The notes beneath the pieces were generated by a model. It saw nothing but the letters and a program-made list of their open reading frames with translations, searched no databases and was not told the origin of the DNA. From Myxococcus xanthus (GTDB lineage: Bacteria > Myxococcota > Myxococcia > Myxococcales > Myxococcaceae), in assembly GCF_900106535.1 (NCBI RefSeq), contig NZ_FNOH01000004.1, forward strand, positions 620,001 through 684,000: DNA of 64,000 nt, written 5' to 3'. Shown piece by piece: positions 24,123-28,122 of this stretch. Position 1 is the first letter of the stretch, and the number at the start of each line of letters is the position of its first letter. The position numbers and the translations under genes are program-made.

Positions 24123-25148
24123 ATGCTACTCGCCGCCGTCATCCTCATTGTCGCGGTCGCACTCATCTTCGATTTCATCAATGGATTCCACGACGCGGCG
24201 AACTCCATCGCCACCGTGGTCTCCACCCGAGTGCTGTCCCCCAACCTCGCCGTGGCCTGGGCCGCGTTCTTCAACTTCGTGGCGGCCTTTGGCGGGAACG
24301 TCCACGTGGCCAACACCATGGGCAAGGGCATCATCAACTTCGAGATGCTCCGGGCTCAGGGCCCCAGCGCGGTGCTCGCCGTCATCTTCTCCGCCCTCAT
24401 GGGCGCCATCGTCTGGAACCTGTTGACGTGGTGGTGGGGCCTGCCCTCCTCGTCGTCGCACGCGCTGGCCGGAGGCATGATTGGCGCCACGCTGCCGGTG
24501 CTTGGCTTCGCGGGCCTGGTGGGCTCGGGCATCGCGAAGATCGCCGCCTTCATCGTGCTGTCGCCGCTCATTGGCATGACGCTGGGCATCGGTCTGATGG
24601 TGTTGAGCACGTGGGCGGTGCACCGCCAGACACCGCTGAAGGTGGACTCGTGGTTCCGCCGGCTGCAGCTCGTGTCGTCCGCCATCTTCTCCTACAGCCA
24701 CGGCACCAATGACGCGCAGAAGGTGATGGGCATCATCGCGGTGGTGCTCTTCGGCACCATCTGGCAGGACCGGCCGTTCCACATCGACTGGTGGATGATC
24801 ATCTCCTGCCACGCGGCCATCGCCCTGGGGACCTTCTTCGGCGGGTGGCGCATCGTCCGCACCATGGGCCACAGCCTCACCAAGCTGGCGCCCATCGGCG
24901 GCTTCGCCGCGGAGACGGGCGGCGGCGTCACCATCATCGCGCTGGCCCAACTGGGCATCCCCGTGTCCACCACGCACACCATCACCGGCGCCATCGTCGG
25001 CGTGGGCGCCACCCGGGGCTGGCGCGCGGTGAAGTGGGGCGTCGCCGGCCGCATCATCTGGGCCTGGGTGGTCACCATCCCGGCCGCGGCGCTGACCGCG
25101 GTGGTCTTCTACGGACTCACCCAGGTGGTCATGCGCCTGGCAAGCTGA
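24123..25148 (+). CDS. pit: Low-affinity inorganic phosphate transporter
   Basis: This 341-residue integral membrane protein of the PiT family (TC 2.A.20) carries out cation-coupled phosphate symport. The duplicated family signature is present twice: DFINGFHDAANSIATVVSTR near residues 17-36 and YSHGTNDAQKVMGIIAV near 196-212. About ten hydrophobic segments can be counted. The length is that of short bacterial Pit proteins and not of E. coli PitA. It begins directly after the DUF47 stop codon. A GC hairpin follows the stop at 25154-25190. Confidence 0.95.
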   Translation: MLLAAVILIVAVALIFDFINGFHDAANSIATVVSTRVLSPNLAVAWAAFFNFVAAFGGNVHVANTMGKGIINFEMLRAQGPSAVLAVIFSALMGAIVWNLLTWWWGLPSSSSHALAGGMIGATLPVLGFAGLVGSGIAKIAAFIVLSPLIGMTLGIGLMVLSTWAVHRQTPLKVDSWFRRLQLVSSAIFSYSHGTNDAQKVMGIIAVVLFGTIWQDRPFHIDWWMIISCHAAIALGTFFGGWRIVRTMGHSLTKLAPIGGFAAETGGGVTIIALAQLGIPVSTTHTITGAIVGVGATRGWRAVKWGVAGRIIWAWVVTIPAAALTAVVFYGLTQVVMRLAS

Positions 25149-25153
25149 GCGCT

Positions 25154-25190
25154 GGGGAGGGCTCGCATTGACCTCCGCGAGCCCTTCCCC
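25154..25190 (+). terminator. Hairpin after pit
   Basis: GGGGAGGGCTCGC and GCGAGCCCTTCCCC can form a 13-base-pair stem with one bulged base around a 10-base loop, starting six bases past the pit stop codon. There is no U-tract. It separates phosphate transport from the threonine leader region. Confidence 0.6.
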
Positions 25191-25222
25191 GTCATGCATG
25201 GACCTGCCGGGTCCCCTGCTTG

Positions 25223-25238
25223 ACTTGCCGCGGCAAGT
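25223..25238. promoter_or_regulatory. 16-bp perfect palindrome in front of the threonine leader peptide
   Basis: ACTTGCCGCGGCAAGT is a perfect palindrome ending 18 bases before the leader peptide ATG and overlapping TTGACT at 25220-25225, a possible -35 hexamer. The placement would suit a repressor site over the promoter. No -10 hexamer is convincing, and no regulator gene is adjacent. Confidence 0.4.
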
Positions 25239-25256
25239 TCGGCCAGCCTTCCCTTC

Positions 25257-25388
25257 ATGAACGGCGTCAACGGCCAGCACGTGCAGCGCGAGGGAACGAC
25301 GTTCCTCGCCCGCGCGTGTGTCCTGACGACCGTGCTGACCACCACCACCACGACCACGACGACTCCCCGCCGGGCGCGGGTGGTCTAG
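25257..25388 (+). CDS. thrL: Threonine attenuation leader peptide
   Basis: This 43-codon ORF encodes a peptide with nine consecutive threonine codons (25338-25364) preceded by VLTTVL and another Thr pair, 13 Thr in all. It ends at TAG 25386. It lies 159 bases before the fused aspartokinase/homoserine dehydrogenase gene and is followed by an antiterminator/terminator pair, exactly the arrangement of the enterobacterial thr leader. No isoleucine codons occur, unlike E. coli thrL; Val and Leu codons are interspersed. The ATG lacks a Shine-Dalgarno sequence, so initiation may be weak or leaderless. It is a sensing peptide: ribosome stalling at Thr codons when charged tRNA-Thr is scarce would favour readthrough. 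Confidence 0.85.
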   Translation: MNGVNGQHVQREGTTFLARACVLTTVLTTTTTTTTTPRRARVV

Positions 25389-25451
25389 CGACGGAACCAC
25401 CTTGGTTTCCAGCTCGGCCCCGCGCTCTCCGGCGCGGGGCTTTTTTGTTTT
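25372..25451 (+). terminator. Threonine attenuator: antiterminator and intrinsic terminator
   Basis: The terminator is a 9-bp GC stem (25417-25425 with 25432-25440, loop of six) followed by TTTTTTGTTTT. The competing strand is GGGCGCGGG at 25372-25380, inside the last codons of the leader ORF. It can pair over nine bases (one G-U) with 25419-25427 and would destroy the terminator. A ribosome reaching the stop codon at 25386 covers this strand and allows termination. One stalled early in the Thr run leaves it free. A local CCCGC/GCGGG hairpin at 25366-25380 may act as a pause structure. Confidence 0.85.
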
Positions 25452-25547
25452 CACATGCCGCAGGAGCCCCGACATGCAGCCCTCCTCGCAGTCGACACCG
25501 ACAAACCCGCCGTCCCGCCTCGCCGCCTTCCACGCGGAGGTGCGCTC

Positions 25548-28007
25548 ATGAGGGTGATGAAATTCGGGGGGACGAGCGTGGGCAACGCCGAGCGGATGCG
25601 CGGCGTGGCGGACCTGGCCGCGGCGGCGCGCAAGCAGACGCGGGTGATGATGGTCGCCTCGGCCGTGTCCGGCATCACCAACCTCCTGTTGGAAGCGGCC
25701 CGCGCGGCCCAGGAAGGTCAGCCGGTGGAGTCGCTCCACGGCCGCTTCGAGGACGTCCACCGCGGCATCATCCGCGAGCTGGCGCCGGAGCTGGGGGAGG
25801 CGCGGCAGCGCTCGCTGGAAGAGGGACTTTCCACGCTGGCCTCGGAGCTGCGCGGGCTGCTGCAGGGCGTGGGGCTGCTGCGGGAATGTTCGCCCTCCGT
25901 GCTCGCGCACCTGTCCGGACTGGGCGAGCGCGCCGCGTGCCTGATTCTGGGCGCGCTGATGCACGCACGCGGACTGGAGCCGCACGCAGTGGAGCCACGG
26001 GACGTCATCCTCTGCGCGGGGGACCCGCTCCAGGCCACGCCGCTCCAGGAGGAGACCCGGGCGCGCTTCACGCCGCTGCGCGAGGCCGGCGGTCCCGGGT
26101 TGATGCTGATGCCGGGCTTCTTCGGCGGTGACACCCGGGGCAAGACGATGTGCCTGGGCCGGGGTGGCTCGGATTATTCGGCGGCGCTGGCGGCGGCGGC
26201 GCTGGACGCGGAGCTGCTGGAGATCTGGACGGACGTGGACGGCATCTTCAGCGCCGACCCGCGGCTGGTGCCAGAAGCCTTCCCGCTGCCCGAGGTGAGC
26301 TTCGAGGAAGCCATGGAGCTGGCCTACTTCGGCGCCAAGGTGCTCCACCCCAAGACGATTGCGCCCGCGCGCGAGCGCGGCATCCCCGTGCGCGTCTGCA
26401 ACAGCTTCCGCCCCGACCACCCGGGCACCCGCGTCACCGACGACGCCGCGCCGCCCGAGCACCCGGTGCGCGGCCTCTCCTTCCTTCCCGGCATCGCCCT
26501 GGTGAACCTGGGCGGCGCGGGGCTCAAGGGCGTTCCGGGCACCGCCGCCCGCGTCTTCGAGTCCATGGCCCTCGCCAACATCTCCGTGGTGCTCATCACC
26601 CAGGGCTCCAGCGAATGCTCCATCAGCTTCTGCGTCCAGCAGGCGGACGCGGAGCGCGCCGTGCAGGCCCTGGAAGTCGCGTTCGAGATGGAGCGCGCGG
26701 CGGGCAAGGTGGACACCATCGAGCAGCAGCGCGGGCTCGCCGTGCTCAGCATCGTCGGTGATGGCATGCGCCACCGCGTGGGCGTGGCGGGCACCTTCTT
26801 CAGCGCGCTGGCGGACGTGGGTTGCAGCATCGCCGCCATCGCGCAGGGCTCCAGCGAGCGCAGCATCTCCGCGGTCATCGCGGAGACGGACGGTCCCCGC
26901 GCCCTGGCCCATGTCCACGGTCGGTGCTTCGGCACCACGGAAGTCGTGGAGCTGCTGCTGGCCGGCGTGGGCAGCGTGGGCGGCGAGCTGCTCAAGCAGG
27001 TCCACCAGCAGGCGCCCAAGCTGCGCGCCCACGGCGTGGACCTGCGCGTCTGCGTCATCGCCAACAGCAAGCGCGTCGCGACGGCGAGCGAGGGAATTCC
27101 CCTGGAGGACTGGAAGCAGCGGCTGGCGGCCAGCAGCGACGGCGCGCCCCTGGACGCCTTCCGCGACTGGGCCCGCGCGAAGCGGCCGGGCCGGCCCGTC
27201 TTCGTGGACTGCACCAGCAGCGAGGACATCGCGCTCGCCTACCCGTCGCTGATGGAGGCGGGGCTCCACGTCGTCACCGCCAACAAGAAGGCCAACGCCG
27301 GCCAGTGGAGCCACTACCGCAAGCTGCGCGAGACGGCCTCCCGTCACCAACGCCGCTTCCTCTACGAGACGAACGTGGGCGCGGCGCTGCCCGTCATCGA
27401 CACGCTGAAGAACATGCTTCGCACGGGAGACCGGGTGCTGCGCGTGGAAGGCATTCTCTCCGGCTCGCTGTCATTCATCCTGGGCCTGACGGAGGAAGGC
27501 GTCCCCTTGTCGCAGGCGGTGGGCACCGCCATGGAGAAGCGCTTCACCGAACCCGACCCGCGCGACGACCTCCACGGCACCGACGTGGCGCGCAAGGTGC
27601 TCATCCTCGCCCGCGAGCTGGGCCGCCAGGTGGAGTTGGAGCAGGTGACGCTGGACTCCCTGCTGCCGTCGGACTTCGACGCCACCGGGCCGCTGGATGA
27701 CTTCCTCGCCCGGCTCCCCCAGGTGGACGCCGCCTTCCAGCGCCGCGTGGAGACACTCCGCGCGGAGGGCAAGGTGCTACGCTACGTGGGCAGCGTCACG
27801 GAGGACGGTTGCTTTGTCGGGCTCGTGCCGGTGCCCCTGACGCACCCGCTGGCGGCGGTGAAGGGCGGAGAGAACGCGCTCAGCTTCACCTCGGAGCGCT
27901 ACAGCCCCACACCGCTGGTGATTCGCGGCTATGGCGCGGGCGCCGCGGTGACAGCGGCTGGCGTGCTGGCGGACGTGCTCCGCCTGGTCGACGGGCCACT
28001 CCCCTGA
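25548..28007 (+). CDS. thrA: Bifunctional aspartokinase/homoserine dehydrogenase
   Basis: This 819-residue fusion catalyses the first and third steps of threonine/methionine synthesis: phosphorylation of aspartate and NAD(P)H-dependent reduction of aspartate semialdehyde. The aspartokinase domain (about 1-290) starts with MRVMKFGGTSVGN and has GRGGSDYSAAL and EIWTDVDGIFSADPR. Two ACT regulatory repeats follow at about 300-455 (each with SVVLITQGSSE or SIAAIAQGSSE). The dehydrogenase domain has its Rossmann GVGSVG at 473-478 and continues with TANKKANAG near 577. GGAGG precedes ATG 25548 by eight bases. Expression should be controlled by the thr attenuator directly upstream, and activity by threonine through the ACT domains. 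thrB and thrC are not in this window. Confidence 0.96.
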   Translation: MRVMKFGGTSVGNAERMRGVADLAAAARKQTRVMMVASAVSGITNLLLEAARAAQEGQPVESLHGRFEDVHRGIIRELAPELGEARQRSLEEGLSTLASELRGLLQGVGLLRECSPSVLAHLSGLGERAACLILGALMHARGLEPHAVEPRDVILCAGDPLQATPLQEETRARFTPLREAGGPGLMLMPGFFGGDTRGKTMCLGRGGSDYSAALAAAALDAELLEIWTDVDGIFSADPRLVPEAFPLPEVSFEEAMELAYFGAKVLHPKTIAPARERGIPVRVCNSFRPDHPGTRVTDDAAPPEHPVRGLSFLPGIALVNLGGAGLKGVPGTAARVFESMALANISVVLITQGSSECSISFCVQQADAERAVQALEVAFEMERAAGKVDTIEQQRGLAVLSIVGDGMRHRVGVAGTFFSALADVGCSIAAIAQGSSERSISAVIAETDGPRALAHVHGRCFGTTEVVELLLAGVGSVGGELLKQVHQQAPKLRAHGVDLRVCVIANSKRVATASEGIPLEDWKQRLAASSDGAPLDAFRDWARAKRPGRPVFVDCTSSEDIALAYPSLMEAGLHVVTANKKANAGQWSHYRKLRETASRHQRRFLYETNVGAALPVIDTLKNMLRTGDRVLRVEGILSGSLSFILGLTEEGVPLSQAVGTAMEKRFTEPDPRDDLHGTDVARKVLILARELGRQVELEQVTLDSLLPSDFDATGPLDDFLARLPQVDAAFQRRVETLRAEGKVLRYVGSVTEDGCFVGLVPVPLTHPLAAVKGGENALSFTSERYSPTPLVIRGYGAGAAVTAAGVLADVLRLVDGPLP

Positions 28008-28070: not shown

Positions 28071-28122
28071 ACAATGCCCCGCCTGCCCTCGAATGCGCGA
28101 GAGGCAAGGGGGAGAGAACGGA

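Follow-up and report, generated by a model that had tools for sequence, protein, structure and literature searches.

The locus considered here raises two linked questions: whether thrA of Myxococcus xanthus is preceded by a threonine-sensing transcription attenuator, and how such a switch came to stand before this gene. It lies in a 64-kb stretch of DNA (the window), which is part of contig G000:C4 of a 9.26-Mb M. xanthus genome. A preliminary description had proposed a complete attenuator of the enterobacterial kind, consisting of a threonine-rich leader ORF, a terminator, and a competing helix, and had offered two possible origins for it, independent evolution or acquisition together with the downstream gene.

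Layout and conservation of the leader locus

The 43-codon leader ORF with its nine consecutive Thr codons was found as described (Table 1); two further Thr residues (Thr24 and Thr25) lie outside the run. The gene behind it encodes the expected fused aspartokinase/homoserine dehydrogenase (AK-HSD) and is identified as ThrA by both Pfam and NCBIfam. A Shine-Dalgarno sequence (GGAGG at 25536-25540) precedes its ATG, and the distance from the leader stop to thrA amounts to 159 nt. The terminator and its U-tract are present, and the hairpin, initially given as 9 bp, comprises 11 pairs, nine of which are G-C (-23.1 kcal/mol, z -3.66 on folding). All nine pairs of the alternative helix can be read from the sequence, one of them being G-U. 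The locus thus has a leader ORF enriched in codons for the end product, and an intrinsic terminator before the gene.

A gene for a phosphate transporter of the PHO4 family ends upstream at 25148, in the same direction as the leader. Right behind it, a 13-bp perfect inverted repeat without a T-run spans 25154-25189 (-28.9 kcal/mol, z -5.02). On the 3' side of thrA, a 547-aa ORF starts at 28093, with only a sub-threshold match to a carboxypeptidase-regulatory domain. The thrC gene of the same genome is located elsewhere (G000:C10:107984), and a family-model search of this genome gave nothing above the cut-off for thrB. The arrangement of thrL-thrABC, where a single operon unites the leader with thrA, thrB, and thrC, is not found here.

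Table 1. Elements of the thrA leader locus (positions within the window)
Feature	Position	Strand	Remarks
-35-like TTGACT of the leader promoter	25220-25225	+	37 nt before the leader ATG
Possible weak -10 CAGCCT	25244-25249	+	18-nt spacer from TTGACT
Leader peptide ORF	25257-25388	+	43 codons, ATG to TAG at 25386-25388
Thr control codons Thr28-Thr36	25338-25364	+	nine consecutive; ACC, ACG, ACT
Antiterminator 5' arm	25372-25380	+	overlaps leader codons 39-42; partner 25419-25427
Intrinsic terminator hairpin	25416-25441	+	25416-25426 with 25431-25441, loop 25427-25430 (4 nt)
Antiterminator 3' arm	25419-25427	+	overlaps the terminator 5' arm
Terminator U-tract	25441-25451	+	T6 G T4
thrA, bifunctional aspartate kinase/homoserine dehydrogenase I	25548-28007	+	Pfam; NCBIfam NF006959 996 bits, cut-off 726

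The closest named relatives, Myxococcus sp. CA023 and M. xanthus AM003, encode ThrA proteins that are 99% identical to that of the window, and the leader peptide of AM003 is identical as well. A terminator preceded by a leader whose ten most Thr-dense codons include 7-10 Thr occurs in 16 of the 17 Myxococcus/Pyxidicoccus rows, that is, in every row with enough upstream sequence; the missing row (L036) holds only 62 nt upstream. These 16 rows represent 14 distinct genomes, L032 and L035 being duplicates of L003 and L005. The longest uninterrupted Thr run measures 6-11 codons in this set, and the leader stop codon is positioned 24-32 nt before the hairpin. Variation within the run is mostly due to synonymous substitutions and whole-codon length changes, with single interruptions by Ser (L034), Arg (L007 and L009), or Gln (L005). 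Both antiterminator and terminator arms are nearly invariant in the Myxococcus alignment, and the beginning of the leader shows partial conservation in near relatives, too. One of the duplicate records (BNCN01000014.1, L035) is titled Comamonas sp. KCTC 72670; it carries a Myxococcus-type thrA (94%) and a leader that matches G042 of the window's genus, and the Comamonas name is probably wrong.

The expectation that close relatives share the Thr run and the terminator holds to a lesser degree for Corallococcus, which carries a weaker version of the switch: a Thr-rich peptide (five Thr per ten codons) with a terminator was found in seven of eight Corallococcus-type rows. In one Corallococcus locus (L006, genome G031), a deletion of about 10 nt relative to L041, located about 120-290 nt before thrA, took out the antiterminator arm and shifted the leader into a frame other than that of its stop codon, the terminator being retained. 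This locus is a natural attenuator mutant that has lost the switch, and its thrA expression may be low.

In the control rows, a Thr leader was called when at least three Thr occurred within ten codons and a terminator followed. No such combination was present in L012-L025 (14 rows that carry the other ThrA type of Myxococcaceae), in six rows of a more distant copy (L027-L031, L111), or in nine rows from Bacteroidetes and similar sources. Three MAG rows (L044, L046, L050) had no Thr leader, though their ThrA is 51-59% identical to the window's. Three further rows (L087, L088, L090), in which thrA is cut off, stand outside the leader/terminator count; Thr-rich leaders and terminator letters are visible in them. 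L061 provided no uninterrupted ThrA reading and was left out of this count, the spacing count, and the quick tree mentioned below.

Runs of at least six Thr codons did not occur in 100 order-1 and 100 order-2 one-strand simulations of the window, in which runs of five appeared at 0.05 and 0.03 per 64 kb, respectively. In the 9.26-Mb genome itself, seven-Thr runs are found at four separate places (seven overlapping matches), compared with 16 matches of the backward-read control pattern; such runs are rare in this genome, not unusually frequent. The antiterminator duplex of the window locus alone reaches p 0.096. Taken singly, this helix is not beyond chance in GC-rich sequence and becomes convincing only via comparison across loci.

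Relationship of leader and thrA to Holophagae loci

An identity survey retained 79 loci as the best of 114 relatives. Among these, ThrA proteins more than 70% identical to the window's belong to Myxococcus, Pyxidicoccus, Corallococcus, one Myxococcaceae MAG, and the Comamonas-labelled record. The next tier (51-59%) is made up of Holophagaceae and other MAGs, followed by Gammaproteobacteria at 44-47%. Within the Myxococcaceae, window-type ThrA was detected in two of the 26 genera sampled; the remaining genera gave full-length matches of at most 43% identity and partial ones of up to 49%. The class to which one Holophagaceae record belongs yielded a strong ThrA match in 59 of 93 genomes, identity being at least 52% in 54 cases, and the best 30 of these 59 matches are denoted L121-L150. 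The class is called Holophagae by inference, the name Holophagaceae standing on three of the four seed records.

In a careful ThrA tree of 35 rows (the long-branch rows L044, L046, L050, and L131 were omitted there and included in a quick tree), ThrA of Myxococcus and Corallococcus falls inside the Holophagae group (supports 99/98 and 98/98). AU tests, performed with the tree already known, rejected a union with the other ThrA type of Myxococcaceae (p-AU 4e-10) as well as a Holophagae group that excludes the Myxococcus/Corallococcus proteins (p-AU 0.0012). The tree software warned that long branches might have been joined, and noted an odd composition in Gammaproteobacteria and the outgroup.

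The arrangement of a Thr-rich leader before a terminator recurs in this class. In a scripted call, 24 of 34 Holophagae loci showed a terminator behind a leader in which ten codons include three or more Thr. Ten loci were missed or under-scored (L052, L122, L126, L129, L130, L131, L132, L133, L140, and L144); in all of these except L122, which has two Thr, the promoter-anchored ATG opens a leader with at least three Thr, and they are kept outside the count of 24. This recurrence bears on the reading that the hairpin merely terminates the upstream phosphate-transporter gene and that the Thr run is a low-complexity accident. The orientation and proximity of the PHO4-family gene would suit such an explanation; however, that gene has a hairpin of its own, and the position of the Thr run ahead of the terminator is maintained throughout the genus and recurs, in the same arrangement, in the 24 Holophagae loci, so that the explanation is hardly credible.

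The Holophagae loci also share the position of a promoter element. TTGACT lies 37-38 nt before the leader start in all 12 Myxococcus/Pyxidicoccus loci, and TTGAC is found exactly 35 nt before an ATG of the leader in 29 of 34 Holophagae loci and at 36 nt in four more; the exception (L049) is on a contig that starts only 217 nt before thrA. The frequency of TTGAC in the window is 0.0004 per nt. An ORF containing three or more Thr begins at the ATG anchored in this way in 32 of 33 Holophagae loci, L122 again being the one with two. Corallococcus shows CTGACC at 38-40 nt in five of six loci. A consensus scan of 24500-26500 detected no full sigma-70 site, and the candidate -10 of the Myxococcus leader promoter is poor. 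No Shine-Dalgarno-like word occurs within the 14 nt before the leader start in the 12 Myxococcus loci. A -35 element at such a distance would make transcription begin at the leader start codon or no more than about 3 nt from it. It is therefore probable, going by this spacing in 12/12 Myxococcus and 33/34 Holophagae loci, that the leader mRNA is leaderless (devoid of a 5' UTR), unlike that of enterobacterial thrL. For Corallococcus, this reading is less secure, since a GGGGA-like stretch precedes some of the leader starts. The probable leaderless start and the probable Holophagae type of both ThrA and leader go beyond what had been proposed earlier.

The 3' end of the leader was compared between ten Myxococcus loci and five of 16 Holophagae loci. 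Around the leader stop, 8-18 nt are identical in register between the ten Myxococcus loci and three of the Holophagae loci (L048, L049, L051), with p 0.005-0.060 against shuffles; the longest identity (18 nt) connects Myxococcus L043 with Holophagae L049. Displaced by three positions, L149 matches the Myxococcus leaders over 6-13 nt; L135 showed nothing beyond chance at this end. In the letters compared, leader homology thus appears clear only for part of the Holophagae group, and the three loci most alike in leader sequence are not those placed closest in the ThrA tree. Myxococcus and Holophagae loci have promoter spacing and terminator letters in common.

Of the two origins first considered, acquisition with the fused gene gains support from the ThrA tree and from the identity of the leader 3' ends, and an independent origin within myxobacteria is disfavoured. 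The latter would mean that the same attenuator arose anew in the Myxococcus lineage before a resident thrA. Short leader peptides are thought to be able to arise repeatedly, as discussed for hisS leaders (PMC2965389); the Thr run is unlike what the Holophagae peptides show, and two of the five Holophagae loci (L149 and L135) share little or nothing in register. Against this stand the 8-18 nt in exact register with the other three, the shared terminator letters and promoter spacing, and a ThrA of the Holophagae group, which make such a convergence unlikely. The simplest and best supported account, given the ThrA tree and the nucleotide identity of the leader 3' ends, would be that the ancestor of Myxococcus and Corallococcus received leader and thrA in a single joint transfer, and the sequences support a Holophagae-like (Acidobacteriota) donor rather than a gammaproteobacterial one.

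Predicted switching

In the proposed mechanism, RNA polymerase would start at or beside the leader ATG, as the promoter spacing suggests, and a ribosome, loading at the 5' terminus of the new transcript, would follow. With ample Thr-tRNA, the ribosome is predicted to pass the nine Thr codons and reach the stop at 25386, thereby covering the antiterminator 5' arm (25372-25380); the terminator (25416-25441) would then form and transcription would end before thrA. When charged Thr-tRNA is short, the ribosome would wait in the Thr run, leaving this arm free to pair with 25419-25427, which is predicted to block the terminator and to allow transcription of thrA.

These states were modelled with explicit ribosome footprints, as an equilibrium fold of the freed 3' part of the leader gave a long mixed structure. 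In this occlusion model, the RNA left free by a ribosome is folded with the A site on a given codon and the footprint edge 13 nt downstream; offsets of 11, 13, 15, and 17 nt were tried, a control with 60 shuffles was run at 13 only, and the model covers equilibrium only. The 34 loci modelled (11 Myxococcus, four Corallococcus, 19 Holophagae) were picked among those with a called leader and terminator.

For the window locus, the model gave a terminator probability of 0.00-0.33 with the A site at Thr29-33 and of 0.965 with the A site at the stop codon. Termination was still predicted (0.86-0.96) with the A site at Thr24, 25, 28, or 34-36, or when the RNA was ribosome-free from the leader start. 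Control would therefore depend on stalling in the middle of the run, and the length of the run would matter by putting codons over the stretch where waiting frees the antiterminator arm. None of the 60 shuffles gave as good a difference between the stop and the best stall position. Across the set, this difference was matched by at most three of 60 shuffles in 28 of 34 loci (10/11 Myxococcus, 2/4 Corallococcus, 16/19 Holophagae) and by more in two of the four Corallococcus loci as well as in L004, L048, L123, and L147. The modelled effect is small in several loci, e.g. L043, L123, L147, L150, and all four from Corallococcus. A terminator probability below 0.5 at some Thr codon under all four offsets was obtained for 20 of 34 loci (nine of 11 Myxococcus, none of four Corallococcus, 11 of 19 Holophagae). 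An antiterminator that excludes the terminator and is freed by a stalled ribosome is thus present in prediction, weakly so in Corallococcus.

Leader translation could also act on thrA mainly by translational coupling, through Rho, or by a small protein working in trans, and the partial conservation of the first part of the leader among near relatives would fit such a role. It is nevertheless very improbable, given the distance of 159 nt between the leader stop and thrA, the Shine-Dalgarno sequence that thrA possesses itself, and the intrinsic terminator with U-tract between the two. Anatomy, conservation within the genus, and the predictions of the occlusion model make the threonine-sensing transcription attenuator put forward in the preliminary description the best explanation. 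We regard it as highly probable that a ribosome-mediated attenuator of this kind sets thrA expression by threonyl-tRNA supply and that leader, terminator, and thrA derive jointly from a Holophagae-like source; on this reading, the three would have entered the Myxococcus/Corallococcus ancestor together, with loss of the linkage to thrB and thrC. Confidence in this explanation is slightly reduced, and that in an independent origin slightly raised, because two of five Holophagae loci lack shared leader letters and switching at all offsets is predicted in only 20 of 34 loci.

Known attenuators and the amino acids probably sensed

The search for the Rfam threonine leader, envisaged earlier as a check, failed: the locus scores 14.9 bits with RF00506 (Thr_leader), compared with a gathering threshold of 55, and the window contains no match to this family at gathering. 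Four gammaproteobacterial loci scanned were below the threshold, too. A permissive Rfam scan returned 17 matches, all below their cut-offs; the best of them (anti-hemB, 26.2 bits versus 49.5) was rejected. The observation is real, and the element is predicted to work like a threonine attenuator outside Rfam Thr_leader. It is best seen as a probably leaderless variant that also occurs in a Holophagae-like lineage, its likely source.

The thrL leader of E. coli has a 5' UTR and contains Ile codons. The Myxococcus locus resembles enterobacterial thrL-thrABC in its Thr-rich leader, competing antiterminator, intrinsic terminator, and downstream ThrA-type AK-HSD gene; a Thr leader with terminator was found in eight of nine gammaproteobacterial loci examined. 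It differs in that the 3' half of the 12 Myxococcus leaders is without Ile codons, in that thrA stands alone with thrC elsewhere, and in the promoter: a TTGAC-type element 26-44 nt before the start of a Thr-rich leader, as seen here, occurred in none of the nine gammaproteobacterial loci. The Holophagae leaders are alike in promoter spacing, terminator, and ThrA group, and for three of the five loci compared the resemblance clearly extends to the leader 3' end; unlike in Myxococcus, their peptides are less purely Thr, and thrB and thrC follow thrA in L051, the one Holophagae locus examined with family models.

Leaderless short ORFs with polycysteine runs reportedly serve as attenuators in mycobacteria. 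Classical attenuators are likewise said to have been predicted in proteobacteria, those for threonine having been reported for Gammaproteobacteria. With the mycobacterial ORFs (Canestrari et al., 2020), the locus shares a leaderless short ORF and a run of a single amino acid as control codons; amino acid, phylum, and presumably target genes differ. With the predicted proteobacterial attenuators (Vitreschak et al., 2004), it has in common the general logic and threonine among the amino acids sensed. Among the open-literature matches listed (titles and beginnings of abstracts, subscription journals being mostly outside), there was no report of a threonine attenuator in Myxococcus or Acidobacteria. 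As a prediction, the present analysis extends threonine attenuation from Gammaproteobacteria to Myxococcus and one class of Acidobacteriota, and a coupling-dependent RNA switch seems to have moved between phyla with its gene while staying intact. The probable lack of a 5' UTR gives direct access to the question whether a ribosome loading at the very 5' terminus can follow RNA polymerase closely enough to govern termination 160-190 nt further on. A readable threonine reporter would also be gained for M. xanthus, which serves as a model of development and responds to a shortage of amino acids by fruiting.

The composition of the leaders indicates what may be sensed. Thr accounts for 59% of codons -22 to -5 in the 12 Myxococcus leaders, a 13.6-fold enrichment over ThrA, and Ile, Met, and Asn are absent there. 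The suggestion that Leu and Val might be sensed as well found no support, both being below their ThrA share in the 3' half of the leader. The 24 Holophagae leaders are enriched over ThrA in Thr (7.8-fold), Met (3.6-fold, a value that alternative start codons may inflate), Asn (3.4-fold), His (2.0-fold), Ile (1.9-fold), and Gly (1.3-fold). Four of these, Thr, Met, Asn, and Ile, are aspartate-family amino acids, and their enrichment in the Holophagae-like leaders (L121-L150) looks as if one attenuator read several members of this family.

The window locus displays the features of a Holophagae-type thr leader cassette, namely a ThrA of the Holophagae clade and TTGAC about 35 nt before the leader (37 nt here). 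The cassette in this sense consists of a start-anchored promoter, a leader ORF without 5' UTR, an antiterminator/terminator, and thrA. With moderate confidence, we favour a scenario in which this leaderless cassette is native to Holophagae thrABC and moved whole into the Myxococcus/Corallococcus ancestor, where a Thr/Met/Asn/Ile leader would have narrowed to nearly pure Thr, a second AK-HSD being under a SAM riboswitch. Another AK-HSD gene of the same genome (L111, G000:C2:422100-425700) encodes a protein 39% identical to the window ThrA; it has no Thr leader, and a SAM-I/IV riboswitch is located upstream of it (622-744, 49 bits, cut-off 41.1). This riboswitch suggests a division of labour, with threonine control at thrA and methionine-side control at the second copy.
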